Shown here: positions 1-60,699 of the stretch, in pieces
How positions within the stretch are numbered: the first letter of the stretch is position 1
Layout: every line of letters starts with the position of its first letter
Assembly: GCA_029204225.1 (NCBI GenBank)
Contig: CM055100.1
Span: 11,479,272-11,543,271 of the forward strand
Direction of reading: 5' to 3'
Length of the DNA: 64,000 nt
Origin: Diphasiastrum complanatum
Taxonomy: Eukaryota > Streptophyta > Lycopodiopsida > Lycopodiales > Lycopodiaceae
The notes under the pieces: generated by a model
What the model was told of the DNA's origin: nothing
The model's input: the letters and a program-made list of their open reading frames with translations, nothing else
The model's database searches: none
Position numbers and translations under genes: made by a program

Positions 1-278
1 CATCCTGCATTAATAGCATGGCGAAAGCATGTGAAGGTTCAGCCTACATGATTCCTGTCTATTCCAAAATGGGCTCGAGGTTACTCAGCATTTACATATG
101 AGAAAAAACATGAAGTAAGGCAGGGGACTGCTCTTTCAGACCACATAACCAGTTTAGTTAGAAGAGGTGAATAATCTGGCTGTGGGAAATCTTTGAATGA
201 GATTGGTGATGCATCTACATCTGCAACATAAGTTCTTTGAGTCTGATCAGTTGCAAAAGGTCTTCTTCAATGAAGAAC

Positions 279-3200
279 CTAGTTATAACGTACCACTCCA
301 TATTGTAGGAATAGCGGAAGGAGTAGATCGCGAAGCTGATTTTCAGGTAGATGATGCCCAACAGTTATGCACCTACATACGCCGTAGATACAGATGAAAG
401 TTATAAGATGCGTGATGGTACTTGCAATGAACCGATGCAGTTTCAATTGTCATATCCATCCAAAATAGCAAAAGACCTGTAGCTAGTGTAGAAAAGAGGT
501 GGACGATATTATTAGAAAAGCTACTATTATGTGAATTCGATTTAACTTGGATCTTCAGGCATCATTTTATCTAGAAATATCAGAATATATTGAGTTGTCT
601 TACATTGAAAGACTAGCAAATTAATGTTAGAGAGGAGAATGGATAAAAAGTGTAGATCAAGTGAGCTAAGAAACTACTTACCAGTTAGCAGTGTTGTTGG
701 CTAGAGATCGCTCAAGCCACTGTTCTTGTACCTGGTCATACTATAGCAAAAAATTCAGCAAAATAACCTGTCAGATTTGGACGCAACCATTAACAAACTA
801 GCAACCTTGCACCAGAGGACGACGTACTGAATAAAGTTCCGGGATTGAAAACCTAGGAAATGCTAATCTCTAGGTCAAGAACCAAAAAGTATCATCTTCT
901 ATCAATTCAAAACTTCAAAGGATGAAGTGAGCAACGTTTCCAGGATTGCAAACCCATGAAATGCTAATTTCACGGTCAAGTACTGAAAGAGAATCATCTC
1001 CTATCAACTTAAATCTGATTCAGATTTGAAACAGTTTACCAACTCTCCTCTGAACCTAAATTGATCATTTCTTTAAGAATTACAACATAGAACGCAATCG
1101 TTAGAATGTAATTAAAGTGCATATAAAACTAACCAGTAAAGTCTTCGTATGCAGAAATACTATGTCAATACTTCCACCAGATGGTAGCAAAATTTTCTTT
1201 GTGAAGTACGGGGCTGGCATAATCAAGTATTCTGATATATTTGCATACATAATGTGACCCTCAGGTTTATAATAATCTCCAACTGCCATGTACCTATAAT
1301 TTTCAGAGAAAATGGAGTGTCAACAAGGAAAATGTAAAAGACACTTGCACCTAAATTTGTAAGAGTTTAAGGATCGCGTAACGTAGGTCATGTTACATAA
1401 TGTATTCTTACCAAGGAATACGTAAGGATGGATGGGAAGTGAATACGTCCTGAAAATTCATCACGGAGAACCTACGTCACAATATGCGAGAGGGAGCAGG
1501 TTGATCAAGTTGCGGATAAATACCACTTGGTTTGCTACAAGTATATATATGATAAATAGTAGATGCAAAAGTTGGGAGGAACCGAACCTTACGCAGCCAA
1601 TAAACCGTGTATCCGGATTTGAATACTTGATATACTAGAGACATAGATTGAATAGTTGGAATTTTGAAAGAAACTCTCGTAGTATAGAATCAGTGGAATT
1701 AGATCCTTTTGTTGTTTGAGAGTTCTAGTGTTTGCCTTAGGCTACCATCAATCGACCACGTTGGAAGGTTTGCCTAGTTTGATATGAGATGATCACTGAT
1801 ATTGCAACCTCCTCACTTCTAGCTTATAGCAAAAAGTAGATAACAAGTGACATTAAGAACAGAATACCTTGTCCCAAACAACGGTCCAATGTTGAAATCA
1901 TTTCCCAAGCTTACAACGAATTTGGTCTTGTACTCCTCGGCAGTGACTCCCATCTGCTCTTCAAACATTCAATTCTCTGTTAGAATTTAACCAGCTTCAT
2001 AGTTTTGTCAAATATCAAATTAAACTTAAATGTGTACTAGTTACGTGTCATCTAGTGGCAGGTACGAACTAGGTACCGGCCGTGATAAGTAGCGGCAGTG
2101 AGCAGGCCCACTACCTTGTGTATCATTTAGCATTCAAGCACAAAGCCGCCCTGTGTGATAAGTAGCGGCCGTGAGCAGGCCCACTACCTTGTGTATCATT
2201 CAGCATTCAAGCACAAAGCCGCCCTGTGACGAGGTGCGTTGAAGGCTGCTCTGCCCATACATAGAGAGAGAATTGGTCCAACCGTCATGTGAGTTTGGGG
2301 ACCTTCTTACTTTAACTAGTTAGTTAGTCATGTGTGAATGCGTACATTATTGTTCTTAACACTCCCACTTAATGAAACATTCACAATTTATTCATGCTGC
2401 TAATATCATATGAAATGATCTTAATCAAACCTTATTTAATCAAGAATTATTATATTTATTTTGACATCAAGAATTATTATATTTATTTTGACATTGATGT
2501 CACTGCTCCCACTTCATGTGAAACTAAGAAGCCTCGGAACGTCGTTCAGGACCTTCATGGTTCCGGAACCATGGTTCCAAAATCACGGCGATCCTGATCA
2601 CGGAACCATGCTGCATCTGACACTGCATCTGACATCTGACTAACATCTGCAGCTGTCGTGTTGTGGTTACACCTTATATTTACCCCCCGATCTGGCACTG
2701 CATCTAACATCTGACATCTGACTGACATCTGCAGCTGTCAGATGACTTTTAAAAACAAACAATTTTTGAATCGTTTCGCAAAAAAAATTTCAAAAAAATG
2801 GAAATCGTTCCAGAACCATCGTTCCGTTCGCGTTCTGGAACCATGGTTCCGGAACTACGATGCTTCTTAGAGGTGAAAGCACATTGGTTTTGTTTTGATC
2901 TTGTGTCTTCATGGTCTATGTCTCTGGACTGCAATAACTTCATGTGGGCTATGTTGGAAACGTCAGTGCTTTCCAAACATCTACACACGGCCTCTTATCC
3001 AGCTTTCTGACATCTGCAAGAAAGTTCACTTTGATCACTAGCTGTTTGTATATTTGTTGCTTCCTTCAGCAACTTGATTTGAGACTGCTCCTCTTTGGTC
3101 TATGCTTTTGGACTGCATCTTCATGTGGACTCTGGTAGAAGACGTCTCTTCCTTCACCTGCACACGGACTTTGCTTTAATCAGCTTTCTGACATCTGCAA

Positions 3201-5508
3201 AGAGCTAGCGTTGATCAATGTTTTATTCATTCTGTATCAGATATGATTGCATTCTCTTCTTCATGTTCGTTGTTTTTCAGCATCAGATATGATTGCATTC
3301 TCTTCTTCATGTTCGTTGTTTTTCAGCATATTTGGCATGAAAAGAATAAGAGAACCAGGGCTGGTTTCAGACATTTCTTGTATACACGAGTTTTGACTAG
3401 AAGCAAAGAGAGGCCTGCGCAGGATCAGGATTCATTCCGCTCTGATACCATGGTACATTTCAAAGACCACGCATGAGCAGGAGAGAGAGAGAGTCAGAGC
3501 GTGCGGAGAGAGAAACACATTAACTACATTATTATTCAATGATTATTAATTTAATAATTATTAATGAGAGAAGAGTGAAATGCCCATACATAAAAAGATT
3601 TGGTCGAACCGTTCACATGACGTTTGAGGACCATCTCACTTTAACTAGTTAGTTTAACTAGTCATGTGTGAATGCGTACAATATTGTTCTTAACAGCGGT
3701 CTTAACAGTGGGTTACCTTTAGGCAATTGTTAAGTAAAAAAGAAAGAAAAAAAATGGCATGTTGTGGTCGGCTAGGAGGAGTCTGACTACATGGCTAGCA
3801 TAGCCTCACAAAAACAGTTTATCTAACCTGTCATAAATTGCTATGTCAGCCTGGTATCCTTCATCCTTTAGCAGTTCCCATCTGTAGGCAGCCTCCTCTT
3901 GAACGATACTTAATACATAACAGAGGTGGGGGCGTTACAAATACCTCTAATCTAAGCCGTCAATCTCCCCAGTGCTACGACCTTTATATGCCATCTCACC
4001 GCATAAGGGTGCCCGGGCTCGCCTCCATATACGTTAAACCCTCCATATACGTTAAACCCAATGGAATCGGTGGAGAGGTTCGGCATATAAATATAAAATT
4101 AACAAATTTCAATTGTAGGCTGCCTATATTTCTGCATACAAATTAGACAGCCTATAAATGAATCTTTCATTAACCCAACTTAAGGGACCTAAATTTGATA
4201 TAATAATACACCCCATACTTTAATCTGATGGGCTTGGTCATAATTACACAATGTTACAGTTTTTATTCAAATCTTAAACATACCATAAAATAAAGACGAA
4301 GAAATAGTCACAAATGCTCTTATGTGAAGAAAGCTAGGCTTAATATACTATTATTATACATCAAGTCATTTAAGAGAAAAGGAACTGAATACTAAATAGG
4401 AATCTCTCTTACTTGTATATTTATCCAAATACAGAGACATCCATGCGATACTAGATCGAATGTATTAGGTATCCATCATTCGATGCTAGATATAATGTAT
4501 TAGGTATCATCATTCAGAGGTGGGCACCTGGTGTAGCGCCCTAACCGCTCAGAGGTGACTAGAGCCTATAACCAGCGATTCGATGGCGCTCAGAGGTGGC
4601 TAGAGCCTATAACCTGCGATTGGTTGGCGAATACCATCAACAAGCAGGAGTTGTAGATTTAGGAATGAGATTAATCCTTTAAGAAGAGCATAGAATAAGC
4701 AGGAGTTGTAGATTTAGGAATGAGATTAATCCTCTAAGAAGAGCCATTCTATGTTTTAAAACCTGCATTTCTTAGCCAACCGGGTGATGCACATGCGAAT
4801 ATCACTTCTCACAATTGTCACTAAAAACCACCAGCTTACTTCAGGAATATTGAAACTTTAACCAAAATATACTGAAAAATAAAGTTATGAAGCAGTATGT
4901 GACATAATAAATCAACCTGGTAGCATCAAAAATTTCTTTCGAAGTGAAATTGAATAGGGATCAAAATTCCTCCCCATTCTCCAAATTATTACGTCAGGCA
5001 ATCTGATTACCAAGGCACTCTAAACATCATAACCAACTGCTAATTACATCAATTGAGCGTCGAGGAAGCTCGACCGCGTCCATCAATATTGCATTTGCTG
5101 GATATGTATTAATCTGTTAAACAAATTCTATCCTGATTACTGTGTTCAGCTAATGTATAGAGAAAAGGTTATTGTAGGAATCACGATCGTCCTATTGTAG
5201 TTGAGAGTTGTAAAGCAAGGGAGTACCTGCATAGCAACTGCTTTTTGAGCTGCTGAACCGCAGCAATGGTTTCCCAGACTTAGAAAGTAAACATCATCTG
5301 AACGTGAATGCAACTGCCGGGCTCTCAGAACGCACGCACCGACAACAAGAACAGCGAACATGATCATGCACCCCTGCGCCACTAAAGTTGCCTTCGTATC
5401 CTTCCGCAACCGTAGCGACGTGCCTACTGACTGGGTGGAACAAGGAGGGACAGAAAGGCTTTGATACGAACCCCACGAACTGCGTGTGCCATGGAGGACC
5501 TTATCCAT
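279..5508 (-). CDS. Purple-acid-phosphatase-like protein (ACP5/TRAP type), six exons, metal sites degenerate
   Basis: Exons read 5508-5227, 1953-1868, 1471-1412, 1293-1134, 740-682 and 372-279. Every junction is GT-AG and the phases (0,2,2,0,2) join into one 246-residue frame. The start ATG at 5508 has A at -3 and G at +4. Residues about 42-62 form a hydrophobic segment followed by basic residues, suggesting a signal anchor. The collinear order of FLSLG..., QMG...FVVSLG, FQDVF..PSL.IPW, MPAPYFTK, the LPSGGS segment, WLERSLA and VGHH matches plant purple acid phosphatases, metallophosphoesterases that hydrolyse phosphate esters. However, the expected GDWG reads GNHCCG, GDNFY reads GNDFN, GNHD reads VGDYY and FVDT reads FLHT; only VGHH is kept. 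A TAG ends the frame just before the expected GHDH, and the family is normally over 300 residues. It could be a pseudoenzyme or a young pseudogene. Family assignment is by motif order only; exons beyond the window edge are possible. Confidence 0.62.
2082..2228. repeat. 73-bp tandem duplication
   Basis: Two adjacent copies begin with GTGATAAGTAGCGGC at 2082 and 2155 and differ at only a few positions. The unit is GC-richer than its surroundings. It sits just outside the left LTR of the element at 2254-3695. Confidence 0.9.
2254..2361 (-). repeat. Partial 3' LTR of the small LTR element
   Basis: The sequence from GCCCATACATA to TTCTTAACA matches 3583-3695 with scattered substitutions. The polypurine tract abuts its end at 2362. 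The rest of this LTR is missing or replaced. Confidence 0.6.
2606..2745. repeat. CATCTGACATCTGAC repeat pair
   Basis: Two blocks rich in the 7-mer CATCTGA, each ending in ACATCTGCAGCTGTC, lie about 85 bp apart within the internal part of the small LTR element. The palindromic string GGAACCATGGTTCC is also repeated nearby (about 2566 and 2838). Confidence 0.7.
3236..3327. repeat. 46-bp tandem duplication
   Basis: Two essentially identical 46-bp copies (ATCAGATATGATTGCATT...) start at 3236 and 3282. It lies inside the small LTR element. Confidence 0.9.
3452..3695 (-). repeat. 5' LTR of the small LTR element with adjacent primer site
   Basis: On the minus strand the LTR starts TGTTAAGA and ends at the primer site complement (3440-3451 on the plus strand reads GCTCTGATACCA). 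It contains a purine-rich GAGAGAGAGAG stretch near 3480. Confidence 0.6.
4023..4059. repeat. Short tandem duplication
   Basis: CTCCATATACGTTAAACC occurs twice in immediate succession. Confidence 0.85.
4446..4750. repeat. Cluster of three different tandem duplications (35, 41 and 55 bp)
   Basis: 4446-4514 holds two 35-bp units (CGATACTAGATCGAATGT...). 4546-4627 holds two 41-bp units beginning CGCTCAGAGGTG. 4642-4746 holds two 55-bp units beginning AAGCAGGAGTTGTAG. The units are unrelated to each other, so three separate duplications occurred side by side. Confidence 0.88.
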
Positions 5509-15240: not shown

Positions 15241-15965
15241 ATGGCAAACATCAATGAGAAAATTTTGGGCGATGCAAGCAAACTTGATGGGGCTTCTAAC
15301 TACAACATCTGGAAATTCAAAATAAAGAGCATTTTGATGGAGAAAGAGTTATGAGAGTTCGTGACAGGTCCGGCCAAATACCACTCCAGGTGACATGAGG
15401 GCCTTTGATAAAAAGGCATAGAGAGCATTGTCCTTAATCAATCTGTCAGTGAAAGACCATGTGATCACTCATATAAGTGATGCCACGACAGCTAGCGAAG
15501 CTTGGGAAGCTCTTAGAATGCAATTTCGAACTTGCAATCTAGCTTGGGCCATGTTCTTGAAGTCGAGATTGAACGCAGTTAGAATGGAAGAAAGCGAATC
15601 GGTGGGATCTTTCTTCACCAGCATAAAGGAGCTGAGAGATCAACTTGTGGCAATTGGAGAACCAATTAGGGACGTTGAATTGGTACATACCACAATGAGT
15701 GGTGTCTCGGAAGGGCTACAGATGTTTGTGAGCAGCATTGCTTCGAGGGAGAGATTGCCTTCTTTTGAAGACTTCAAGCCTTGCTTGCTAAAGGCAAGCA
15801 AAAAGGATGGAAGAGGATTCCCAAGAAATCCAAGGATGATGATGATGAGGGAGAGTAGTCATCGAAGGCGAAAAAGAAGAAGAAAGGCAAATGTTACTAT
15901 TGCCACAAACCGGGTCATTGGGCACGTGAGTGTTACAAGAAGAAAGCGGACATAAATGAGGGAAA
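15241..15965 (+). pseudogene. Copia gag (nucleocapsid)
   Basis: The ATG at 15241 opens with KLDGASNYNIWKFKIKSIL, the copia gag signature. A TGA at 15352 and a further break before 15428 interrupt it; 15428-15800 is open through EAWEALRMQF and SRLNAVRM. A zinc knuckle of CX2CX4HX4C form (CYYCHKPGHWAREC, 15892-15933) is in a different frame from the preceding part but in frame with the protease, so a frameshift lies between 15800 and 15890. Gag at 58086 is a relative. Confidence 0.85.
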
Positions 15966-15966
15966 A

Positions 15967-16500
15967 GTGAAACAACAAGGCAACATTGCCGAAAATGATG
16001 GAGAACATGAAGAGACAAGCGTGTTCTCATCGGCATTGGCATCCCAGGTTGATGATGGTGCCATATGGTTCATAGATTCAGGCGCCACAAGGCATATGAC
16101 TGGAAAACGTGATTGGTTTGAGAAATTCTCACCAATCCATGATGGGGATAAAATCACTCAAGCCAATGGGGAGGAATGCCAAATACAGAGTGTTGGCAAT
16201 TTACCTATGCAGTTTCCTGATGGTAAAATCAAGAATATCCCTAATGTGCTTTATGTTCCTAGACTCAAAAAGAGTTTGCTTTCTATTGGAGTAATGGCAA
16301 ATCAACATCTTAAGGTTGAATTTTTCAAGGATGGATGCCTTACGAGGGATATGAACCACAACCATAAAGTGGTGGTGAAAGGTTATAGTATAGTAACTGT
16401 GGCCTTTATAAATTGGATGCTGCAAAACCAGGAGAATATGGTCTGGCTATCTCAACAGCATCTCAATTTGAGTTGTGGCACAGAAGACTTGGTCACTTGA
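15967..16500 (+). pseudogene. Copia protease region
   Basis: WFIDSGATRHMTG at about 16066 is the retropepsin active-site motif (DSGA). It is followed by a beta-strand region with LPNVLYVPRLKKSLLSIG-like spacing (NIPNVLYVPRLKKSLLS). A frame change near 16410 connects it to the integrase frame. The protein would be part of the gag-pol polyprotein. Confidence 0.85.
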
Positions 16501-17452
16501 ACTATGGGAGCTTAAGATTGATGGCAAAGCTGAATATGGTAATAGGATTACCAGCATTGCAGGATGATCATCACGCAATATGTGAAGGATGCATCATGGG
16601 AAAGCATCACAGGCAGACATTCAAGAAAGGTGGAGCTGCAAGAGCTAAGAAACTGCTGGAACTTATTCACAGCGACCTGTGCGGCCCAATGAAGACCATG
16701 TCGTTGGGGAAAGCATATTATTTTATGACTTTAATAGATGATTACTCAAGGAGGACATGGATTTTTTTCTTGAAGAAGAAATTTGATGCTTTTGCTCGCT
16801 TCAAGGAGTTCAAGACTTTAATAGAGAACCAACTGGATGCACGCATCAAAGTGCTAAGATCTGATAGAGGGGGTGAATACAGATCAGATTTTGAGGACTT
16901 TTGCTAGGAACATGGCATCAAAAGACAATCTACACAATCACACACACCTCATAGTAATGGTGTAGCTGCAAGGAAAAACAGGACTATTATGGAGAGTGGA
17001 CGCTCATGATGAAGCAAATGGGCTTGACTGATTCACTTTGGTTGGAAGCGTGCAGTGCGGCAATGTTCTTGCAAAATAGGAGCCCTACAGTTGCGGTTCC
17101 AAATGTGACCCCCGAAGAAGCATTTACAGGAATAAAGCCAAAAATTGACAAGTTTTGCATCATTGGATGTAGGGCCTATGTACATGTGCCAAAGGAAGAG
17201 CGAAAGAAACTTGATGCCAGAGCAATCAAGTGTATCTTCGTCGGTTATGATGAGAGGACGAAGGCATACATGTGTTTTGATCCTGTAATGAACAAAATTC
17301 ACATAAGCAAAGATGTGATCTTTGATGAAACGCATAGGTATGAAGATGAAGACCATGCAAGTGGTGAAAGCATCAAAAGACTTCCCACAATTTTGAAAGA
17401 AGAAAATGAAGAAGACGCTCCACATGATGATGCACGTGAAGATGAGAGTTGA
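16413..17452 (+). pseudogene. Copia integrase
   Basis: The pre-integrase domain has [11 protein letters not shown] and CEGCIMGK, a zinc-binding HHCC arrangement. The core has the first Asp in HSDLCGPM and the second in RSDRGGE. The third catalytic residue, Glu in the usual NG.AERKN motif, is Ala (GVAARKN, about 16966). A TAG at 16905 and a frameshift before 17006 break it. The C-terminal part (17006-17452) keeps SLWLEACSAAMFLQNRSP and the IGCRAYVHVPKEER and FVGYDERTKAY motifs. It ends in an acidic tail, after which the RT is deleted. Confidence 0.88.
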
Positions 17453-26586: not shown

Positions 26587-27600
26587 ATGTCGTCGATCAT
26601 CAATATTCAAGCTCATATCACTACAATCTTGGACTCAGAAGGTTGAAATTACTTGATTTGGAGATTAAAGACTTCACTCTTATAAAAGCGAAGGTCTATG
26701 GCAATGGGTATAGAACAAATAGAGGAGAAGCCAGTAGCTACTCCTGGCAAAGAACTTCGGAAATGGAGTTTAAAAAATGACAAAGCTATAGCAATTATTG
26801 TGTCTTCAGTGCATGACAATATAATGCTAGATCTTACATCAATTTCGAATGCAAAAGATTTATGAGAGGAATTGCAAACCAAGAATGAAACTCGATCTCA
26901 TAATCAAATTATGTTCTTGGAAGACCAATTAACTTACCTACAGTGGGACGCCAAAGACCTGAACACATTCATGCAAAAGATTAAAGATTTGCTTATTTCC
27001 TTGCAAAATTATGGTGCAGAAAATACAATTCCTAAGGAAAGATAGCTTAGTTATATTCTTCGAGCCCTACCCAGGTCATTCCACTCGAACCTTATTGGTG
27101 AAAGATGCGACAATGATACTTCAAAAGGCAATAGACGGAGTTGAGGAGGAAGTAGATGCTCGTGAATGTTATGATGACAATGGTGATTCAGAAAATGCTC
27201 TATTTACTCAGAAGTATAAATCTTCTAAGAAGTCTAATTTTAAGAGGGAGTCGTCTAAGAAGAATGAGTCTAAGACAAATGAACAACAATCTGGTAAACA
27301 ACAAAAGAATTTCAACGATAAGAAGATCTGCAACAGATGCAGAAGATTAGATCACACAGAAAAAAAGTGTTGGTTAAATCCAAAGATTGAATGTCTTCAT
27401 TGTCATAAATGGGATCATGCAGTAGTAGACTATTATCAGAATCCCATAAACAACAAGGAGCAGAATCAAAGCGAATTTTCATATTCAAACTATGTCAAAG
27501 ACAAAGCAGAATGCTCTAGAGCAGCAAAAGGCAGGGCAACAAGGAACCTAGCAGCTTATGTTAGTGTTGATCTATGTTGTTCATCCAATTCAATTTGAGA
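26587..27600 (+). pseudogene. Copia gag with two zinc-knuckle-like motifs
   Basis: An ATG at 26587 opens a gag frame with several stops (near 26647, 26674, 26863). A frame change near 27020 leads to 27011-27598, with a lysine- and serine-rich segment. One complete CCHC knuckle (CNRCRRLDHTEKKC) follows, then a second motif CLHCHKWDH whose last cysteine is replaced. The protein would form the particle core and bind RNA. Confidence 0.8.
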
Positions 27601-28125
27601 TGTAGTACTTGATTCGGGAGCCACTCACATTTTGTTTCCTCGAAATTTTTTTTGCCTGAGTACAAGAAGACGAACTATTCGAGATTCATTATACTTGGAG
27701 ACAATTCTAAACATGTGGTTAATGGAACCAGTGTATTATGGCTGGACACAAATCAGGGTGACAAGAAACTGGAGGAAGTTCTCTATGTCCGTACTCTTGA
27801 TAAAGATCTTCTATTTGTAGCTACGATAGTCGATACAGGCATGTCAGTAACCTTCACAAAGAACTCTTGTAAACTGTTCAACAAAGATTATTATAATCTG
27901 GTTGCTAAAGGCAACAGAGAAGGAAATTTATATCACCTAAACATTCAAACAAGAATCGAACAAGCAAATCAAACTCAGGAATCGACAGATGTATTGTGGC
28001 ACAAGAGACTATGTCACATGAATATGGAAGCCTTGTACAAGCCAACAAAAGTCAGAGAATTCAAGGAGTCGAAATCAAAAGTAGAGATATTTGAACTACC
28101 TGCAAATCTTATCTTAAAGGCAAGA
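27601..28125 (+). pseudogene. Copia protease and pre-integrase region
   Basis: VVLDSGATHILFP at about 27604 is the protease active site. After a frameshift, 27652-28128 continues with the protease C-terminal part, VLYVRTLDKDLLFVATI, and the pre-integrase LWHKRLCHMNMEAL motif. Confidence 0.82.
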
Positions 28126-28580
28126 TGACTAGAACACCTTTCAGTAAGGATGTTTATAAAGCAACTAAAGTACTTGAAATTGTGCATTCAGATATTTGTA
28201 GACCATTTGGAGTATTGTCATTGGGTGATGCAAGGTACTTCATTATGCTTATTGATGAGTTCAGCAAGTTCGCTATAGTATACTTTATTCGTACCAAATC
28301 TGAAGCTTTCGAGAAATTTGTTGAGTATACAAATTGGGTTGAGAAGCAGACAAGCAATAAGTTGAAGCAAATTCGCACAGATCGTGGAGGTGAGTAAATT
28401 TCCAATGAATTCAAAGCTTACTGTACTGATCGAGGTATTATGCACATGAAGACTGCATCTTACACACCTCAACACAATGGAATAGCTGAACGAAGGAACC
28501 GTACATTGATGGAAGCTACAAGGTGTATGATGGCTCATGAGAAGGCACCAAAACAGTTGTGGGCAGAAGTAGTGGTCTGC
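28126..28580 (+). pseudogene. Copia integrase core, truncated by an inversion junction
   Basis: The core runs through IVHSDICRPFGVLSLG, LIDEFSKFAIVYF and IRTDRGGE; a TAA follows at 28396. It then resumes with YTPQHNGIAERRNRTLMEAT, so all three catalytic acidic residues are kept. After EKAPKQLWAEVVV (about 28575) the sequence switches to antisense copia RT. Confidence 0.85.
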
Positions 28581-29625
28581 TTAGAATCCTTGACCAAATT
28601 GGTATTGTTGCTAAACAACAACATATCATCCACGTATAAGGTGATGATATGAAGGATTGCTGCACTGACTTGGAATAGAGTTGCAATCAACAACGCTCGG
28701 TTTGGATCCTTTTTTGATGAGGAATGTGTTGATCCTCTAAAACCAAGCTCTGGTAGACTGCTTCAAGCCATAAAGTGCTTTGTGGAGTTCACAGGCATGA
28801 TTCTTCATACCTTCTAGAACGTATCCTTTGGCTGGTTCATGTAGATGTCTTCTTGTATAACTCCATTCAGATAGGCTATTTGCACATCAAGTTGATGTAC
28901 TTCGAGTTTGGCAGCTACAACATAAGACATGAGTGCTCAGATCGACGAATGCTTGACTACTGGACTGAAAGTCTTGCTGTAGTCAATGTTGGGGATCTGA
29001 GTGAATCCTCGTGCTACAAGTTTTGCCTTTCTTCAATCAATTGCTCCATTGGCATTGTATTTGATCTTAAAGATCCATTTGCAATCAATGATATTGCAGC
29101 CAATAGGAGCTTTGATTAGTGACCATGTCTGGTTCTTGATCAGAGAGGAATACTCTCTGTCCTTAGCTTCTCTCCAGAGATCAAAGTCTGGTTGGCTGAG
29201 TGCCTCTTCAACTGTTGTCGGTTCCTGTATCAAGAGACATGTAGACTCAAGAGTATACCTTGTGGGCTATGTGCACACTCGGCTTGATCTTATGGGAGGA
29301 TTCGACTGATGAACCACTCCTGGGACTTGTTGTTGGGTAGCAGCAACGTCTTCATCTGATTCGCTATCAAAAAGTGGGTCAACAATGGACACGTCCGAGC
29401 TAGAAGCAAGACAGTCGTGTCAATGGCAGGTGATGAAGGTTCTCCTGGAGCAATATCCTTGCCTTTGATTTCGATGAACTGATCCTCGATAAAGACTGTA
29501 TCCCGACTATACAAGATTTGCTAGGTATCAAGATCATACAACTTGTATGTATTATCAGATGAAGTAAATCCAATCAGGATGGTCTTAAGACCTTGGAAGT
29601 CCAATTGATTTGCAAAGCACTTTGT
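28581..29625 (-). pseudogene. Inverted copia fragment: integrase C-terminus to RT catalytic box
   Basis: Along the minus strand, 29625-29290 holds an integrase C-terminal region (TYKLYDLDTQQILYSRDTVF). 29233-29033 holds the RT N-terminus (DREYSSLIKNQTW and IIDCKWIFKIKYNANG). Farther on are HKALYGLKQSTRAWF and, near 28650-28625, an IITLYVDDM box reachable after a 1-base frame shift. It ends where the plus-strand integrase begins at about 28580. Stops and frameshifts are frequent. Confidence 0.8.
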
Positions 29626-29841
29626 ATTGCTAAAAAACATGATTGCATGCACCCTTATCATGTATGTATTTGGCGGTCTTCACGATTTGAGAGAATATTA
29701 TATTGTACGGGTGGTCGGATGCGAGCGTCACTTTGTTGTCTGGGTAAGCTTGCTAGCTTCTTGTGTGTTATAGACAAACTCTCATCTCATTTTATCTTTT
29801 CATGCATTGTGGGAGACTATAAGTAATTACATAAATATTTT

Positions 29842-32800
29842 GTGACAGTTTGTTTAGAAAAATGTTGCCTCCAAATAACACCATGGCGGCGTCTCAACAA
29901 GAAGCCAAGAAAATGCTATCCGTGGTCGGCATGGATTACAAGAGTATTCATGTATGTTTCAATGATTGCATCTTATATCGAGATGAGTTTGAGGAGGCAA
30001 GCACGTGTCCACACTGTGGGAAACACTGCTACAGGAAAGATTTATAAGGAGCGACCATATCTGTGAAGGTGGTAAGACATTTTTCCATCATACCCTGGAG
30101 AGAATCCATGTTGATTGTCCAGCATGGAAGCACGTGGATGCTACTTGGCATGAGTTTAGGGATGAGCCTCGCCATTTGTATTTGGGGTTGGCAATGGATG
30201 GTATGAATCCATTCGGTTCAAGCTCCACATCATGGTCCACATGGCCGGTTGTCCTTGTAAATTACAACATCCCCCCTTGGCTAAGTATCAAGAAGGGGCA
30301 CCTAATGCTTGCCCTTCTTATCTCGGGAAAATACAAGGCAAAAAATATGGACATGTATATGGCTCCCTTGATAGATGAGCTAAAGATATATGGCAAGGAG
30401 TTTAAGTGAGCGATATATCAAGACCATTGAGACAAAGAGATTTTGTGCTAAAGGGGACCTTGATGTGGACGATGCACGACTTTCATGGATATGGGGAACG
30501 TTCAGGTGAGATATCCTTGCTATTGGTTCGATTCATGGTATTATATTAAATTTTATGTGTATTCACAAACTTTCTTTCAATTCGAACATTAGACTCACAG
30601 AAAAGTAGTTTTTCTGGTCTCAATATAGGGCTTCAAACTAGTGGCTATAATGCATGCCACATTTGTGGCGAGTATTTGCAAGCACATCACTTACAACATC
30701 TACAAAAGATGGTTTATGAGGGCCACACTCGATACCTTCCACCTGATCACCCTATGCGTGATGGGCTTGTTGGTCAACGTCCCCATTCCATGAAGGTACC
30801 ATACATATTTGGGCCAATGTACATGTCATTTATTTATGTTACAGTTACCCTGTTTATTTTTCATCTAACGATAATCTGAATTAAATGTGTGTACTTGTTT
30901 GCGAATATTGTAGGCAAGTGATTTCAATATTTCTTGGAATGAAGAGGTTATCAATATTTCATAAACTCCCATATTGGGGAGAATTGTTGATAAACCATCT
31001 TTTGGACCCGATGCACATATTCAAGAATGTCGGGAGCACGGTTTGGGAGCACTTGACCAGATTGAAAGATAAAAAAGATGTACAAGATGACTTAAAAAAA
31101 GTGAAAAAGATGGTTGATTTATGGCCACAAATAGTGGGGACTTCAGTTGTCCTCCCAAAGGCCCCATGGATCTTTTCGAGGAGAGAATAGACGATTGTAA
31201 AGAAGGCAATAGCCTCATTTCGAACTCCGATAGGACACATGTGATGCCTAAAGGGTGCTTTCACAAGGGACAACAAGCTAAGTGGACTAAAGTCTCATGA
31301 GTGGCATAGATTTTTATAGGTTGGCATGACATGTTTTTTGATGTTACTTCCACCTCAACATTGTGGATTACATTTTATTGCATGTCTTGTAATTTCATGA
31401 TGATCTCATTGCACATATATGTATCTCAGTGACCAAATTGTTTTTGTGTATGTAGTTTGTGCTTCCCTTGGTGTTAAGAGAGTTCTTGACAGAGGAGTTA
31501 AGGAGTGCAATCTACAAAATCAGTGGTTTGGTGAGGTACGGGTGAATGCAACTCACATCATTCTTTCTTGGGATGATTCAAGATGATGATCTTACTAACG
31601 TGTATGTCATTGTTGTTTACTTTTCTTATGAAGATACATTTCATCCAAGGAATTACCGCCGACATCCATTGAGACGACAAGACAAAGTTCCAGTGAGACA
31701 TCGTGCTTGATTAAGAAGCACTTTCCCAGATCCATTCTCACCATTCAAATGCATCTCATTGTGTATTTGGTAGATGAGGTGGCCATTGCAGGTACATCAT
31801 CTACTTGAGTCAATTGCCTATTCTTAGTCCATCCTAGACTATTGCTATTGTGGTCATTCCATGTTTTCTCACTAACATTGGTCCATTTTTTTAATTCAGG
31901 AACTGTCCATAGTCGTTGGATGTTTTTCTTGAAACAATTCATGGAAACATTGAAAGACTTCATAAGACAAAGAGCAAGGCTTGAGGGTAGCATGGTGGAA
32001 GGATGGCTAGTGCAAGAGTCCATGGTTTACATCACGGAGTTCCTTGCTCATAGTGATTCTTCTAATCCTTGTCTTTGGGATAAAAAGGATGATGAGCATG
32101 TTGTTGGGAAGTTCCTCAAGGAAAAGGAGCGATTATCAGAATGAGAGATTCCTTCAGGGAGAAGATGAATAAGTTTTGCATTCTTAATAACGAGGAAATG
32201 CAAAAGTGGATTTTGCTATACGAAGAGGCCAAGGCTCATAGACAAACAGCTCGATCCACTTTCAGGAGAGGGCATAGAAGACAACCATATTCACCTTATC
32301 TCGTCCTTCTACCCAAGGACATGACACTTAATTGGCTACGTGATGTCCTTATAAAAGCCTTGACAAACAACCAAGAAGTAACAGAGAGAGACCGGGAATA
32401 TGCAAGGGGGTGCAATTTACGTGTAATCTAGCTATGATGATCATCATTCACATGTTAATCAAAACATTTGTACGTGCAATTTTGTACATGTTCGTTGTAT
32501 TCCTAACACATTTAGTTCTATTTTGTTCTGTACAAAAAATACAGTCCACTGTGGATGCATGGATGACACTTTCGTACGGAGCACATTGTCAAAATAGAAA
32601 CACGTACGATTGTGGAGTCATGGCAAATTTTACCCAAGAGATTCGAGCAAGCACAACGGACACAAATTTACTCTTTTCTCAACTTGATTATTGTGGGACA
32701 ATCAATGACATCCTCGAAGTTGAATTTAGGCAATTCAACTTTTTCATAGATTTTAATGTCAAATGGCTAAAAGTTATTTGCAATGGTCCCAATGCAACTG

Positions 32801-33474
32801 TCAGGTATTTTGCCATTGACTCTACCAAGCTTTGGATGGATCAAAGTGATACATTTGTTTTTCCTCAACAATGTGAGCATGTACATTTCTTCTATGTCTT
32901 CAAGATGTCTATGCTCTTTTGTTGTCAATCAATCAATTTTCATTATACTGCAAAAAATGTATATTGTGTCATGTATATCAAGAAACTGTAACATAGCTAT
33001 GAAAACTAACTACGAGTCAACATTTATGGTAACATCAATCAATTACAGGTGTTCTTTCACCTTGATCGTTCAGATCCCAGATGGTGGTACGTGATTCAAG
33101 TCGATCCTCAAAGTAAATTTTTTTTTGAAGATAGAGATGTCATGGAGGACATGGCGTTGCCAACTGATGCACCTGATGAACAAGATCGTGATGATGGATT
33201 CGATGACACATTTTCGGAGGATGATCATGTGCAAGGCTCACAAGCTAATGATGATGTTGAGCATGATGCATCATCATCGAATGGATCAACGACACACGAC
33301 ACACCTTCTCGATCTCACTCGTTATCACCATCGCCATTAGCTTTTGAAGATCAACTTATTAATGATGAAGCTATAAGAGATATTTGGGTGGAATTAGAGA
33401 TAGACTCATTTGATTTGGCCGATTCGTCGCAAGCTGATGCGGCAAATAATAATGATGAGCTACCAAATGAATAA
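29842..33474 (+). pseudogene. CACTA (En/Spm) TNP2-type transposase, near full length, decayed
   Basis: Order of matches to the family: LPPNNTMAASQQEAKKML, FNDCILYRDEFEEASTCPHCG, then LGLAMDGMNPFGSSSTSW...WPVVLVNYNIPPWLSIKK and PLIDELKIYGKEF. Then CHICGEYL...YEGHTRYLPPDHPMR and HKLPYWGELLINHLLDPMHI. Next comes a DUF4218-like part (VHSRWMFFLKQFMETLKDF) and a DUF4216-like part (ILEVEFRQFNFF, FAIDSTKLWMDQSDTFVFP, RSDPRWWYVIQVDP) with an acidic tail. Plausible introns: 30506-30628, 30796-30913, about 31790-31899, 32881-33048. Stops at 30044-30046, 30406-30408 and 31188-31190 and frame changes near 30090 and 32142 show decay. It would cut and paste CACTA elements. Confidence 0.88.
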
Positions 33475-33959
33475 GTGAGACAATACGATGTATTTCAACT
33501 CATTGTAATATTAATCATATTGCTCACAAATGCAATTAGATTTGTTAATTGACTAGTTGACATTAAACAAGAAGTTGACGCATGTGAGACCACAATTTGT
33601 GGTCATCATTTTTTTGTGATACATAAATTTCTTTATCCAATGTGCTGATAGGTAGCAAATTCCAAAAGTGAGATCCATTTACATTTTGTTTTATACCGTG
33701 ATTTATGCTAAGGCGTCTTTTTTTCATCAGTCTCGGTATTACCCTCGGTTAGCAGAGTGTCTTGGAATGCTTCTTGCCACCTCGAACCTCTTTATAACCT
33801 TCTCTATATGCCTCTCTATAACTCTCTCTATAAATGTTTTCAAAACAAGTTCAAATTTGGTAGGCATATACCGAGGCCAAAAACCAGACCCGAGGCTTGA
33901 GCATTTCGCTCCCATCATGACTCATTTCGAAAATTATCTTTCAAACACAAAAAGCCTTG

Positions 33960-33983
33960 GAAATCGTCCGTCCTCTTGTAGTG
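33960..33983 (+). repeat. CACTA terminal inverted repeat, right end
   Basis: Read on the minus strand the end is CACTACAAGAGGACGGACG, starting at 33983. This is the canonical CACTACAAGA type. It lies 0.5 kb after the transposase stop. The matching left end was not found; the region left of 29842 is replaced by the inverted copia fragment. Confidence 0.7.
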
Positions 33984-34105
33984 GTATATCTTTGTTCAAT
34001 TATTGATAGGCGTAGTAATGCACTAGGAAAGAAGGCTCATTTCGCGGTGCTCAATAGTTCGTTCATAGACTTTGACTTATCGAATCCTCATTCCTTCTTC
34101 CAACA

Positions 34106-34401
34106 TGGTGTCAAAGCTTTACTATTAGATACCCTTCATGGTATATGGGTGAGATCATTAGATACTTTTCATAGTATCAAATTCTTATTAGAGCACACTT
34201 GCTCTTAATCTTCAAATTGTGGTATCAAATTTCAGTATCAGGTAATTGATTTTCAATTGTAGCGTCACACAATATCATTCTTGAAGTCATCGACTTATCG
34301 ACAAACCAAGTTTTAAATGGATTCTCAGAGTAAAGATGGTCTTATCACAGACAAGCTGAATGGATCCAATAACTATTTGTGAAAATTTAAGATGAAGACC
34401 T
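34106..34401 (+). pseudogene. Copia leader and gag start
   Basis: CCAACA followed by TGGTGTCAAAGC (34106-34117) looks like an LTR end plus a primer site. The ATG at 34317 opens with DKLNGSNNYL and KFKMKTL, a copia gag N-terminus, with one internal stop. It is interrupted by a second LTR at 34402. Confidence 0.6.
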
Positions 34402-34579
34402 TGTGAGAAATTTCAACCTGTTTAGTCATATTTTGGTTAATTGTCAATATTAGGCCTATATGCATTTTAGACTTAGAGATAAACTTTATGAAAGTTATTT
34501 TAGTCTAAGTTCATTTGAATTACCACTTTTAGAAAGTGTGGGGACCTAATTGGATCTCAGTGATTCATATTTTTTCACA
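34402..34579 (+). repeat. Compact 178-bp LTR with TGTGA...TCACA ends
   Basis: The segment begins TGTGAGAAATTTC and ends TTTTTTCACA. It is followed at once by the primer site TGGTATCAAAGC (34580-34591). It cuts into a copia gag. No coding region follows; 34592-35300 is AT-rich leader-like DNA without a gene. Confidence 0.65.
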
Positions 34580-35525
34580 TGGTATCAAAGCTTTTGATAC
34601 GAATCTATGTAGCATAACTTTTTTGAGTCCACATTTTGTTTCCACACTAAAAATGGCATAACGTTTTAGTGGTAAGTTTGAATTTAGCGGAGTTTGGTGC
34701 ATTGGACAGCGCTCAACAAGGGATTTCCAATGATATGTTGCATGACATACTTTTGAGCCTTGACTAAAAAGTCATGGCAAGTCAAAAGTATTAGTGTTAT
34801 AATATTTTAATAATATAAAAGACATCTTGCACGAATTCTTAAAGGGTCTTTTTGGAGCTCAAATCTACCCTAATGTAAATCAAAACTCAATATAGGGTTG
34901 TGATCTTGAAGTAAGCCAATTTTAGACATTACTTACTAGATTTGGGCGACTTTAATTGCATTAGGAAGGTCTCATTGGAGGCTACAAGATTCTATATCAA
35001 GTTTGTAGCATTTGCATGCAGAATTCGCAAGATTCAATTTTTTGTACTTTTGTCAAAACCCTAAATTTGTTTGGATCTCTTATATTTGAGGTTGCTGGAG
35101 CTTTTAAGAGTGTGTTTCGAGTTTAGAAAGTACAAGAGTTCATGATATTGTAGGTTAATGATCAAGTATCTTCCATTCTATGTGTTGATTTTGCTAGGTT
35201 TGGTGCAAGAAAGAGATTTGCAAGGTTCCATATCTTTGTGATTTCTTCTTGAGTTCATTTGTTGACATTCGTGTGTGTGTTACATATACACAAAAAAGAT
35301 ATTGGCAGGGAAATCCAATGAATTGAAATATGACATGCTATAAAGCAAATTCACAAGGCAACAAAAAACATGCTAACCTATGAGAACTTGTGCCAACCAC
35401 ATATGTAAACCACATATAGGGAACACACAATAGCCACTTGTTCGGAACCCTACATTGAAACAAAACAAATGACGTACACATAGGCTTGTGTACTTCTTGA
35501 AAAGCCAAGAGATATGAAAATTGAT

Positions 35526-35995
35526 TCAATAAAAAATAGAAATATATATCCTACTAGAGCACTCTTCATACCCAGGAAATTTTTGCATACTGGACATCAA
35601 GATCCCCTTCATCACAAAATATCTTTTTCTGCATGGTCTTGAAATATTAGTTGCTCGAATTCTTTGACATAAGATCTTAAGCTCATCTATCAGGGGAACC
35701 ATACATACATCCATAGTCATTGTCTAGTATTTTTTTCAAATAAGAAGGGCAAGCATGAGGTGTCTCTTCTTGATACTTATCCAAGGTAATTATTATTCAC
35801 CAAGACAACATACCAAGTGGATCATGATGTGGAGCACAATCCGAATGGATTCACACCATCCATTGACAACCTTAAATGTATTTAAATGTCAAAGCTCATC
35901 CTTAAATTCAAAACATCTCTCATCTACATGCTTCCATATTGGACAATCAACGAGAATTCTAATAATTTCATCTATCTACAGTTGGTCAAATGTCA
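35526..35995 (-). pseudogene. CACTA TNP2-type transposase fragment
   Basis: The minus strand reads ILVDCPIWKHVDE, the equivalent of DCPAWKHVDATW at 30116. It goes on through MVPLIDELKILCQRI to SRPCRKRYFVMKGIL and FPGYEECSS. The order agrees with the copy at 29.8-33.5 kb; stops and small deletions are present. Confidence 0.8.
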
Positions 35996-36002
35996 TGTCA
36001 TA

Positions 36003-36300
36003 AGTTTTGCTATGGATGAAGAAGATGATCAAGTTGATTAGAATAAGAATGATGTGGATCTAGATCTGCATGGTTTTCAAGAAAATGATACTATTGATCA
36101 TGCTGAATAAATATCTAATGATTTGACTTTACACAATAAGATCAATCATTTCCATCACCATGAACTAAGAAAGATCACCAAACTCATGATAATGAAGCCA
36201 TAGGGGTTACGTGGATAAAGCTAGAAATAGACTCATTTAGTTTGGTAAATTTGTCACAAATATGCAATATATAAATGTTGATGTAATAGAAAATGAATAT
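36003..36300 (+). pseudogene. CACTA transposase acidic-tail fragment
   Basis: The DEEDDQVD opening and the WIKLEIDSFSLVNLSQ segment match the tail WVELEIDSFDLADSSQ at 33389 of the larger CACTA copy. It is in opposite orientation to the adjacent fragment at 35526-35995. Confidence 0.65.
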
Positions 36301-36784
36301 ATGATATACAACGGTTATTGCATTTTGCCATACTCTTGATTATATTGCTCAAACTTTTGTACTTACTTACTTGATCAACTAGCATGACACAAGTCAATAC
36401 TATGTATGATGCATTATTAATAAGTAATTAAACAATCCATCATGATATTGGTACTGCATATTGTTTTGGTTTTTACTTGTATGTATGGCCCTTTTTGTTG
36501 AGTGAGAATTAAAACCATTGTATTGATAAGCATGTCTTTTCAAAAGACTCTAGAAAGCCCTCTCTGTAACATATCATATGGAGGTTAGGTAATTGTCATT
36601 AGTGTCAGTATACTTGTCAGTGATTACTTGTTTATCTACCTCTTTATTTACATTGAATTTTGATGTTTCTACCTCCACATGTACAGACACTTATATCAAT
36701 GATAGTCTTGCCCTGAGTGTGAAGTGGCCAAAAAAATGGTTAAGTATTTGGTAAACACTCGAAAAAAGCATCACAAAATGCTCG

Positions 36785-37350
36785 AATTGTTGTAAACTTG
36801 TTTAAGGTTATTTGTAATAATCTCAATGCGCTTGTGAAAAACGATGAGAGTGGCTACTTTGCCATTGACTCCACCAGGATTTAAAAAGATCAAAGTGTTA
36901 CAATTGTTTTTCTTGAACAATGTGAAAAGGTAGGTACATAGATGTGTTTAACACAGTAATTACATGTCAATGTTTATGGTGATAATTATACCGGTGTCTT
37001 TCATTTATCCTATATGGTAGTATGTGATTCAAGATGATCCTCGAAGTAAGAAATATGTGAGGATAGAGATGTTATGGAGGACACATGCAGCTTGAACAAG
37101 ATGATCAAGTTGATGCTACTTTGGATTTGAATCTTTCTCAAGCAAATAATTGTATTGATTATGGTGCATCATTATTTGACTATTTGATGTCACACAATAT
37201 ACCTTATCGATTATCTCATCATCACGATAGTCGTAATAACAAAGCCATAGGGGACGTACATGTGGATAGAATTTGAGATAGACTCATTTAATTGGGTGGA
37301 TTTGTCACATGATCTGACAGATGATATTGATGTAATAATAGGTGAATGAA
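36785..37350 (+). pseudogene. CACTA transposase C-terminal fragment (DUF4216-like part and tail)
   Basis: KVICNNLNALVKNDESGYFA and AIDSTRI match 32770-32840. Then come VFLEQCEK, an intron-like gap, EDRDVMED, and the IEFEIDSFNWVDLSHD tail. Frame changes and stops are frequent. Confidence 0.75.
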
Positions 37351-37588
37351 TGATACACGACGATCTACAAAAAATTACAACACTATTAATTACATCGCTC
37401 ACACATGCAATTGTACTTGTTACTTGATTCATTGACATGACACAAATGTCTTGTGCATGCTGCATGTTTGAGTGATTAACATGTCATGTTATTGTTATAG
37501 TATATCATTTTGGTTTTTAATTACATGTATGACGCGTCTTGTTGATAAAAAATTAAATTCATTGTACTCATAAGCATATGCTTTCAAA

Positions 37589-37599
37589 AAACACTTAAA
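37589..37599. repeat. SINE target-site duplication, left
   Basis: AAACACTTAAA, identical to 37790-37800. Confidence 0.88.
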
Positions 37600-37789
37600 G
37601 TCCATCGCAGCGCGGTGCTTGGGTAGAGTGGTTGACTGCGACCAGCATGGCACAGGCTCGAATCCCAACCGCTGCGTAGTGACATTGTAAGGAGCTTGCT
37701 CCGATCTTGGCGTTGCCCAGATGGCGTGGCCAGGCTGTATATATTGTGTATAACCCACTAGTGGCGTAACTCTGTATCAAAAAAAAAAC
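37600..37789 (+). mobile_element. tRNA-derived SINE with poly(A) tail
   Basis: The 5' part is tRNA-like, with a box A (TTGGGTAGAGTGG, about 37619) and a box B GGCTCGAATCC (37657-37667), which fits the GGTTCGANNCC consensus at all but one base. A non-tRNA body follows and the element ends in TGTATC plus ten A. An 11-bp direct repeat AAACACTTAAA flanks it at 37589-37599 and 37790-37800. It would be transcribed by RNA polymerase III and moved by a partner LINE. Confidence 0.88.
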
Positions 37790-37800
37790 AAACACTTAAA
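37790..37800. repeat. SINE target-site duplication, right
   Basis: AAACACTTAAA directly after the A-tail. Confidence 0.88.
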
Positions 37801-37959
37801 AATCAACTATGTAGTATACCAAGGTAAATACACCTTTTAATTTACATCAATGTGTCCGTATAAGCCTCTTTATGTACCACCTTATTTACGCCCCACATAA
37901 CTTGAGAGAGAGGAAGAGGCTACATCTGAACTCAACTGCATGGATAGGCTGTATGGGGG

Positions 37960-38055
37960 GGGTTACCCATCGAGGCCATTCTGCAAAGGAAAGGCCTTTG
38001 GCTGAGGGTGGTAGCCTTAGGAGGAAGGCCCTTCCTATAGCCGAATGGCCGAGGA
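37960..38055. repeat. GC-rich palindromic block
   Basis: Strings such as AAAGGCCTTT, GAAGGCCCTTCC and GGCCGAATGGCC-like pairs can fold on themselves. A run of eight G precedes it. It is similar in style to 6270-6345. Confidence 0.5.
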
Positions 38056-38133
38056 GGTGACTTTCCAAAACGTAAAAACTCTTTTTGTTTTTTTTTGTTG
38101 TAAATGTTTTTCACGTGCACCTTATGCATTAAG

Positions 38134-38275
38134 GTCATGTAATTTTTTTTTATATGCTACTTAACATCCCGGAAAGTAAGGTCATGTAACTTTTTCTACA
38201 TGCTCCTTAACATCTCGGAAAGTAAGGTCATGTAACTTTTTCTACATGCTCCTTAACATCTCGAGAAGTGACTTT
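38134..38275. repeat. Three tandem copies of a 46-47-bp unit
   Basis: Units start with GTCATGTAA at 38134, 38181 and 38227 and include ACATGCTCCTTAACATCTCG. They may be subterminal repeats of a DNA transposon ending near 38459. Confidence 0.85.
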
Positions 38276-49151: not shown

Positions 49152-51089
49152 CTATCTCCATTTTCCTCGTTTAGCCAACGAGGTGTCCTCCAAGTTTCTC
49201 CCTTCAAAGACCTCCTCAACGATGTATATAGACTCAGATTTAAGTTTACCTAGTGGTATACTCGGAAGAGATATATTCTCGGATTCGAATGGACATACGT
49301 AATTATCCTCCGGAAACGAATTTTCTGAGCCTTCAACGCTAATTTCTTCGAATAGTGAATCTGATAACGCCCACAAATCAGCTTTGCCAGCTCGCTTTTT
49401 TTCACAGTGAGTCGAGCTGCGTATCAATCGTTGCATCCTACTCAGTTTTCCAGGAAGCCACTCTGCTGCTTGTAGAGGTTGCACTGCCAACTGCTGAATG
49501 GCATCTTCTCTTTCCTGCAAGAGACTTTCAGCAAGGTACGTTAGGTTAACATTATCTTCAGGTGAGCCCCGCCAATTTTCGACATCAATATCATCTCTTG
49601 GTATGATGATCTCGTGACTGTTTTTCAAGATATGCATACTTGCCCAACAAAAATCCTCAATGACACTCATTGTATCCTCCCACTCCACTGAAAGTTTGTA
49701 TGCAGTTTCCATCATCTCTTCCTCTGGAGTGCCCATAATGGGATCCACCATCCCGTCGTTTGCTATATTCAAAAGAGAATCCATGTCAAGCACTTGCTGA
49801 ATTAAAGAACCTTTTTCATGTAAATTATTCAAGTTCACATCCTCACATGCACTTTCCTTAGTAGCACTTAGATCTTCGAGGAATAAAGTATTACTCGTGG
49901 CAACAATTATATCCGGGACGTCAATTGAACTGCTCAAAACCTCCTCGCGTGTAATATATGATTCTAAGCTCCCGGTCTTATCAACTTCAGCAGCTGAACA
50001 ATGATCGGCTTTTTTTGATGTTTCTTGACATCTCGAATGTTGTATGTCGACTTTATGATCATTTTTTATAGTGTCTTTAGATAGTGCATTTGCACCTTTG
50101 CCAAATTGTACTTCCATGCGAGCTCGAGAAATCTTACGTGTGACGTCTGAGGATACTCTAGTTCTTGTTTGCTGCAACGACTTTGACTTACTTTCCCTGA
50201 CATGTCCACTTCCCCTGACTGATTGTTTGTCTGTTCGTAGCATTCCTTGAAGCCTAGCAACAGTCATTGTGTTTTGCCGTCCATGGAGAGCCGTGAGATT
50301 ATTTCTAGTTAAAGGACATTTGCATACCGGGCAATTCTTGTTCGGAGAATCATTATGAAGCCAGCAACAAAGACAGGGCCAGCAGAAGAGATGCCCACAA
50401 AATGTTACGACTCGAGCCTCATTTGGCTTGTACGAGCAGACATTACATTTAGGGCTTGCACCAAGGCTCGTCATTTTCCCGGTTTTGGATTTTCCACAAT
50501 TACCGTCTTTTACATTGCTTATCTCATGCGAGATACGTGAATGATGATGGTACGTATGTTTATCATCTTTACTTTCAGCGGTTGCATCCTTTATACGTTC
50601 CGTATATTTCCCTGGGTTTACGAAATGTGTATTGTTGTTCAGCTGCTCTTCGGGTCTAAACCCATATGGTGTATTGCGCTTACCATGGTTCATACCATCA
50701 AAACGGAGAGGTTTATTCTCATATTGTATTGTTGGGTTACTTGAAAGACAAGAATAAGCCTCCTGGGAATATCCTGGCGTGCGTAGGAAGAACCTAGGTT
50801 CTATCAGTGTATGGTCGCGCGAGAAATTGTTGAGAATTGTTGGAGCTGGATAACAAACGTTTGTTTCCGTTGGCGTTACTCCTGGCGTTTGGACATTCCA
50901 CTGAAGTACTGGCTGCTGCACAGCTATACGATTTTCAAGTTTATTATCAAACTGAGGCAACTTGTCTCCAAGTAAATCTGCAGACATTCCATATGGAGTC
51001 TTCAGAAAACGTTGGAAAGCCTGGTCGAACGACTCGTCCTTGTGAATTTGTACACCGTCTACTTCTTCAGAGGTGAAACGAGCAACCAT
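49152..51089 (-). CDS. RMA-type RING-finger protein, probable E3 ubiquitin ligase
   Basis: A single uninterrupted frame of 645 residues. The open frame extends 14 codons farther, but an in-frame TAG and no other ATG lie in the spliced leader, so the ATG at 51089 is preferred. A C3HC4 RING at residues 215-256 reads CNVCSY, VVTFCGHLFCWPCLCCWL and CPVCKCPL, followed by NLTALHGR. This is the arrangement of plant RMA (membrane-anchored RING) proteins, which pass ubiquitin from an E2 to a substrate. RMA proteins are usually shorter and end in a membrane segment. Here I see none: instead a long acidic and serine-rich C-terminal half, and an N-terminal part with repeated TPYG/TPG motifs. Substrate is unknown. 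The frame is intact in a window where nearly everything else is broken, which argues that the gene is functional. Confidence 0.88.
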   Translation of the reverse strand: MVARFTSEEVDGVQIHKDESFDQAFQRFLKTPYGMSADLLGDKLPQFDNKLENRIAVQQPVLQWNVQTPGVTPTETNVCYPAPTILNNFSRDHTLIEPRFFLRTPGYSQEAYSCLSSNPTIQYENKPLRFDGMNHGKRNTPYGFRPEEQLNNNTHFVNPGKYTERIKDATAESKDDKHTYHHHSRISHEISNVKDGNCGKSKTGKMTSLGASPKCNVCSYKPNEARVVTFCGHLFCWPCLCCWLHNDSPNKNCPVCKCPLTRNNLTALHGRQNTMTVARLQGMLRTDKQSVRGSGHVRESKSKSLQQTRTRVSSDVTRKISRARMEVQFGKGANALSKDTIKNDHKVDIQHSRCQETSKKADHCSAAEVDKTGSLESYITREEVLSSSIDVPDIIVATSNTLFLEDLSATKESACEDVNLNNLHEKGSLIQQVLDMDSLLNIANDGMVDPIMGTPEEEMMETAYKLSVEWEDTMSVIEDFCWASMHILKNSHEIIIPRDDIDVENWRGSPEDNVNLTYLAESLLQEREDAIQQLAVQPLQAAEWLPGKLSRMQRLIRSSTHCEKKRAGKADLWALSDSLFEEISVEGSENSFPEDNYVCPFESENISLPSIPLGKLKSESIYIVEEVFEGRNLEDTSLAKRGKWR

Positions 51090-51130
51090 CTCTGTGAGCC
51101 TCACAGTTTTCAGCTGTTTTCTGTTTCTCA

Positions 51131-60402: not shown

Positions 60403-60536
<134 letters not shown>

Positions 60537-60699
60537 GTGTAGAATGAATTTGTGTCTTCTATATTTTTTTTACCGAGCTTCAATAAATATATTTGTCGAG
60601 CACATGTCTTCATATTTGAGTATATATTGCCATATTCGAGTAGATATTTGTTATTTAGAAAATACATGGCATTACAAATATCAAATAGAAAAAGGCAAA

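Follow-up and report, generated by a model that had tools for sequence, protein, structure and literature searches.

Can a purple acid phosphatase (PAP) gene keep its introns and its reading frame once most of the metal ligands that define the family are gone? This question is raised by a locus on the minus strand of a 64,000-nucleotide stretch of the Diphasiastrum complanatum genome, which is termed the window herein (C9:11479272-11543271, contig CM055100.1; the assembly holds 1.74 Gb in 5176 contigs). The locus carries a gene of the tartrate-resistant (TRAP) type whose predicted product lacks five of the seven ligands. We consider it probable that this is a complete, spliced gene for a small, membrane-anchored TRAP type 5 protein without its di-metal centre, that is, for a pseudoenzyme. 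Under this proposal, an N-terminal hydrophobic stretch would anchor the protein in the membrane, and the phosphatase-like domain would face either the lumen of the secretory pathway or the cell exterior. The fold would persist without hydrolysing phosphate esters, and selection would have favored the protein for binding or anchoring during the loss of its ligands.

Gene structure and family membership

When the exons are reconstructed past the window edge, the TRAP-type gene comprises eight exons and seven introns on the minus strand, all with GT-AG borders and matching phases. The coding length is 954 bases including the stop codon, which corresponds to 317 residues with zero internal stops and zero frameshifts. 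The gene has lost catalytic residues although its coding frame is unbroken, a combination that is one mark of a pseudoenzyme. The exons are as follows (window positions unless C9 is given):

Exon 1, 5508-5227, minus strand: start codon, predicted membrane anchor, GDWG changed to GNHCCG; donor GTACTC, no stop
Exon 2, 1953-1868, minus strand: GDNFY changed to GNDFN (D112N, N113D, Y115N)
Exon 3, 1471-1412, minus strand: RFSVMNFQDVFTSHPSLRIP(W), aligning with the TRAP fedvfs..slr..pw segment
Exon 4, 1293-1134, minus strand: GNHD changed to GDYY with a few residues gone; FxDT changed to FLHT
Exon 5, 740-682, minus strand: YDQVQEQWLERSLANNTAN(W); a loop of ~15 residues is absent relative to relatives
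Exon 6 (corrected), 372-294, minus strand: VGHH retained, ~9-10 residues absent after VGHH; end GTG/GTACGT
Exon 7, C9:11479275-11479145 (window 4 to -126), 131 bases, minus strand: opens with DAYIYGHDYVGQYSEDAGVAYIGNGVGG; GHDH changed to GHDY
Exon 8, C9:11479006-11478910, beyond the window, minus strand: stop codon

An earlier note on this DNA had proposed six minus-strand exons (5508-5227, 1953-1868, 1471-1412, 1293-1134, 740-682, and 372-279). These coordinates are exact and their phases match; the five introns between them are GT-AG, and together they yield a single open frame of 246 codons up to a TAG. The same note had taken this TAG, located ahead of the expected GHDH, for damage, and this part of its account does not hold. 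Exon 6 terminates at 294 with a good donor (GTG/GTACGT), so the TAG at 279 is intronic, and exon 7 supplies GHDY. A premature stop was thus rejected. Exons 7 and 8 lie almost entirely off the left edge of the window, where only the first four bases (1..4) belong to exon 7. The start of exon 7, DAYIYGHDYVGQYSEDAGVAYIGNGVGG, is in register with YGVTAYLCGHDH of the TRAP family.

Introns 1 and 4 contain tandem or near-tandem duplications of ~50-75 bases, located at window positions 2082-2228, 3230-3329, 4639-4744, and 837-1007.

Homology to purple acid phosphatases, which the earlier note had proposed from the order of motifs, is beyond chance by two measures. The six-exon model matches six TRAP type 5 or purple acid phosphatase sequences in PDB with E values of 1.3e-7 to 2.3e-7. 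The 317-residue protein scores 94.4 bits against a bacterial TRAP-like profile, and the best of 999 shuffled sequences reaches 4.9 bits. This profile represents 82 bacterial TRAP-like proteins (80 loci of 526 relatives and three plasmid ones, minus one frameless locus). With Pfam Metallophos (PF00149), the protein scores 28.4 bits (E 2.7e-6), above the cut-off of 21.5, whereas the six-exon model on its own scores 15.4 bits and remains under it; hence, exons 7 and 8 lift the score. As a yardstick, the bacterial relative L002 scores 79.8 bits on the same model. By homology across the phosphatase domain, the protein belongs to the TRAP type 5 purple acid phosphatases. No NCBIfam family matched the 317-residue protein, and no relatives were found among viral contigs with the six-exon model.

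In a tree of 20 sequences, the protein pairs with TRAP 1qhw, which we take to be from rat, and not with the canonical small PAP of its own genome (support 0.80). This placement is weak because the branches are long: the window protein forms the longest branch in the tree (1.83, compared with 1.03 for 1qhw). At residues 40-63 the protein has a single strongly hydrophobic stretch, and its domain contains two N-glycosylation sequons. These features fit a single-pass protein whose domain would be lumenal or extracellular, an orientation judged from sequence.

The di-metal site

The defining set of a PAP consists of seven metal ligands in five motifs, as given in passages of PMC3360649 and PMC6515233. 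Measured against this set, the window protein retains two of the seven ligands, H222 and H249. Three of the lost ligands are replaced by asparagine (D80N, D112N, and Y115N), N149 is either changed or deleted, and the fifth change is H251Y. Further active-site changes affect N113D, H150, and D191H. The altered motifs GNHCCG, GNDFN, VGDYY, and FLHT are present as the earlier note had described them, and VGHH is indeed retained. In addition, loops are shortened, with ~9-10 residues absent after VGHH and ~15 near QEQWLE.

The earlier note had also considered that other exons might carry intact motifs. A sequence scan of the coding strand in the 10 kb round the gene revealed no exon with intact GD.G, GD..Y, GNH[DE], or GH.H, and the altered motifs were recovered in the same 10 kb, which serves as a positive control. 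Because five of seven ligands are lost and no exon with intact motifs was found nearby, catalysis by the PAP mechanism appears very unlikely.

We also examined whether the losses favor the ligands. A total of 46 columns were defined as deeply conserved (at least 90% in the bacterial set and identical in TRAP 1qhw), and 24 of these are retained in the window protein. Losses affect five of the seven ligands and 17 of the 39 other conserved columns (Fisher p = 0.23). Columns within four residues of a ligand are lost in 15 of 25 cases, compared with seven of 21 for columns farther away (p = 0.085). The suggestion of changes clustered at the metal ligands amid otherwise intact segments is therefore unsupported, and ligand-focused loss is at most a tendency.

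The identity of the substituted residues brings a different explanation to mind. Positions 80, 112, 113, 115, 149, 150, 191, and 251 carry N, N, D, N, D, Y, H, and Y, respectively (the alignment is uncertain at 149-150). Since Asp, Asn, His, and Tyr have metal-capable side chains, the site could have been remodelled into a metalloenzyme or metal binder with a new arrangement of ligands. However, this pattern was noticed post hoc, and the surrounding loops are shortened. Moreover, Asp, Asn, His, and Tyr interchange by one first-base change each, and such exchanges are frequent in proteins. We consider a remodelled site to be quite improbable.

Second copy, selection, and decay

The same contig carries a second full-length copy of the gene at C9:11330687-11324690, ~154 kb from the first. 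It has an open frame, every splice border, and identical ligand losses, with all the ligand changes of the window gene. The matching region is far more extensive than the gene: 45,837 of the 64,000 window bases lie in collinear blocks of 95-99.5% identity with another stretch of the contig (C9:11304939-11386351, a span of ~81 kb), and several insertions are found in one copy only. Another 11,047 window bases match that stretch in inverted orientation, and 7,116 are without a listed match there. The paired stretches may be a true duplication or two haplotypes placed on a single contig. Other matches in the assembly are likewise doubled, some of them on small contigs.

Within the paired region, window positions 27198-38244 (~11 kb) have their best match inverted at C9:11310545-11321730, with 99.4-99.5% identity. 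This segment is perhaps a mobile element inserted differently in the two stretches.

The possibility that the second copy is the other haplotype on the same contig, together with the doubled matches elsewhere, would be in keeping with an artefact in which the region is misassembled or the gene model is wrong. Against this, the frame, the borders, and the ligand changes are identical in both assembled copies, and the addition of exons 7 and 8 raises the Pfam score. An artefact is very improbable.

The two copies differ at six of 954 coding bases, five of which are replacing and one silent (dN 0.0068, dS 0.0046). Differences between the copies number 39 in 4861 intron bases and 30 in 3576 flanking bases, and exons do not differ from introns (p = 0.69). 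This is the pattern expected if the gene were a unitary pseudogene in early decay, in which selection on a TRAP-type gene ended recently and the frame has not yet been struck. The ratio of five replacing changes to one silent is as under neutrality, and the gene has also lost deeply conserved non-ligand residues. The six changes have no power, since the neutral chance of at least five replacing ones is 0.58.

The state of the frame itself argues the other way, since it is open even though the protein forms the longest branch of the tree. In a neutral simulation that starts from the present coding sequence, excludes insertions and deletions, and makes half of all changes transitions, and which thus gives a rough bound, the mean number of stops is 7.5 when 56% of residues are kept, and just 0.05% of 4000 runs have no stop. 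A decaying gene would therefore be expected to carry several stops, whereas neither copy has one in its 317 codons and both keep all 14 splice ends. Across the five divergences simulated, the joint probability of losing at least five of seven ligands without gaining a stop does not exceed 1.8e-4, with frameshifts uncounted, and under the same rough model it falls below 1e-5 once 28 splice-site bases must persist. Because stop-free neutral decay to the present state is so improbable, selection probably preserved the frame during the loss of the ligands.

Several observations weigh against the pseudoenzyme reading. Conserved non-ligand residues are lost along with the ligands (17 of 39), and loops are absent beside the active site. 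Exons diverge as much as introns, and so the copies give no indication of selection after they separated, whereas a neighboring RING frame diverges less (four of 2001 bases). Furthermore, the neutral model presupposes that all seven ligands were present in the ancestor. Nevertheless, the complete eight-exon frame that is common to the second copy leads us to favor a pseudoenzyme over a dead copy, without this being proof. Early decay, for which no close intact paralogue was found in searches of the plant's own genome that could be the source of a dead copy, is somewhat unlikely, if a real contender.

These own-genome searches were made with both parts of the gene. With the six-exon model and E values up to 10, 12 of 13 rows correspond to the two copies and one row is at chance level (C3, E 3.28). 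With exons 7 and 8, four of five rows are the two copies and one is again at chance level (C4, E 7.35). Hence, no further members of the TRAP-type clade were found in the genome by searches that score the best candidates only. With a bacterial query and E values up to 1, 25 rows were obtained. These include fragments of canonical small PAPs (C2/C401 and C4), and the remaining rows are taken to be further PAPs. The earlier note had left the choice between a pseudoenzyme and a recently dead copy. The former is favored by the complete frame in both copies, and the latter, as a copy of an intact paralogue, was rejected as unsupported, since these best-candidate searches gave nothing above chance level beyond the two copies and the canonical small PAP of the genome is identical at only 54 of 230 aligned positions.

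Similarly, neither copy has the stops, frameshifts, or missing splice sites and introns that would mark a processed or disabled pseudogene.

In a bolder version of the pseudoenzyme reading, this TRAP-type clade would survive in the plant only in the form of a membrane-anchored protein. Its lost metal ligands would have been swapped for other metal-capable side chains (Asp by Asn or His, His by Tyr, and Tyr by Asn), and the rebuilt, non-hydrolytic site might bind metal or another ligand and serve as a scaffold or sensor. We give this version only a slim chance.

The window carries several other features. Frames of a Copia-type retrotransposon occupy positions 15422-17452, with a gag match at E 7e-21 and text resembling a zinc knuckle and an integrase by eye. 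The RING finger frame is located at 49152-51155 on the minus strand and runs uninterrupted for 667 codons, with every RING match under the Pfam cut-offs; its differences from its copy, at four of 2001 bases, are two silent and two replacing. A long CT-type simple repeat at 60331-60780 lies in an open frame, where it gives a run of Ser-Leu codons. There is no tRNA in the window, and no Rfam match to it reaches the gathering score.

Known relatives and precedents

The closest known comparisons are TRAP type 5 enzymes (PDB 1qhw, 1ute, 7ov8, and others), which are collinear with the window protein over nearly the whole domain. Identity to 1qhw is 64 of 251 aligned residues in the tree alignment and 67 of 244 in a larger one. 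Compared with these enzymes, the window protein is without five of seven ligands, has shorter loops, and carries a predicted N-terminal membrane anchor.

The canonical small plant PAPs, which are presumably of the PAP3/7/8/17 type, belong to the same superfamily. The genome's own example is at ~C2:70897929-70899715, and other pieces are on C4. As assembled, the canonical small PAP of this genome is identical to the window protein at only 54 of 230 aligned positions. By eye, its first intron is apparently in the same place (before MG/MD) as that of the window gene, and another intron is near the PW(Y/F) site. Unlike the window protein, the C2 PAP retains GDWG, GDNFY, GNHDY, FIDT, VGHHP, and GHDH; GDNFY, GNHDY, VGHH, and GHDH are seen among the C4 pieces.

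For a TRAP-type sequence with an anchoring role, the nearest precedent is Plasmodium GAP50 (PDB 3tgh), a membrane anchor of the gliding machinery. The active site of GAP50 is non-canonical, and its membrane anchor is C-terminal. One article describes it as a fully active ACP5 unit with a protein-anchoring annotation (PMC4256932), and its activity is disputed. The bacterial TRAP relative L002 matches 3tgh at E 8e-18, whereas a PDB search with the six-exon model did not bring up GAP50 among matches with E values of 1 or less. As to a GAP50-like membrane-inserted domain in a protein complex, the feature seen in the window protein is the hydrophobic stretch at residues 40-63.

Incomplete ligand sets have been reported among plant PAPs. 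Typical ligands are present in 35 of 77 PAPs of Brassica napus (PMC11819708), and among tea PAPs 16 are complete and three are without the first Asp (PMC6515233). A TRAP-type gene with two of seven ligands is not described in the available text of these two surveys (PMC11819708, PMC6515233).

In a search of one open-access full-text library, no paper was found that pairs 'purple acid phosphatase' with 'pseudoenzyme'. Pseudoenzymes are well studied among kinases and protein phosphatases; to our knowledge, those among purple acid phosphatases are much less studied. With its frame unbroken and two of seven ligands left, the D. complanatum gene offers a clean test of whether the TRAP fold can persist without catalysis. 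Surveys restricted to PAPs with full motifs would miss such genes.

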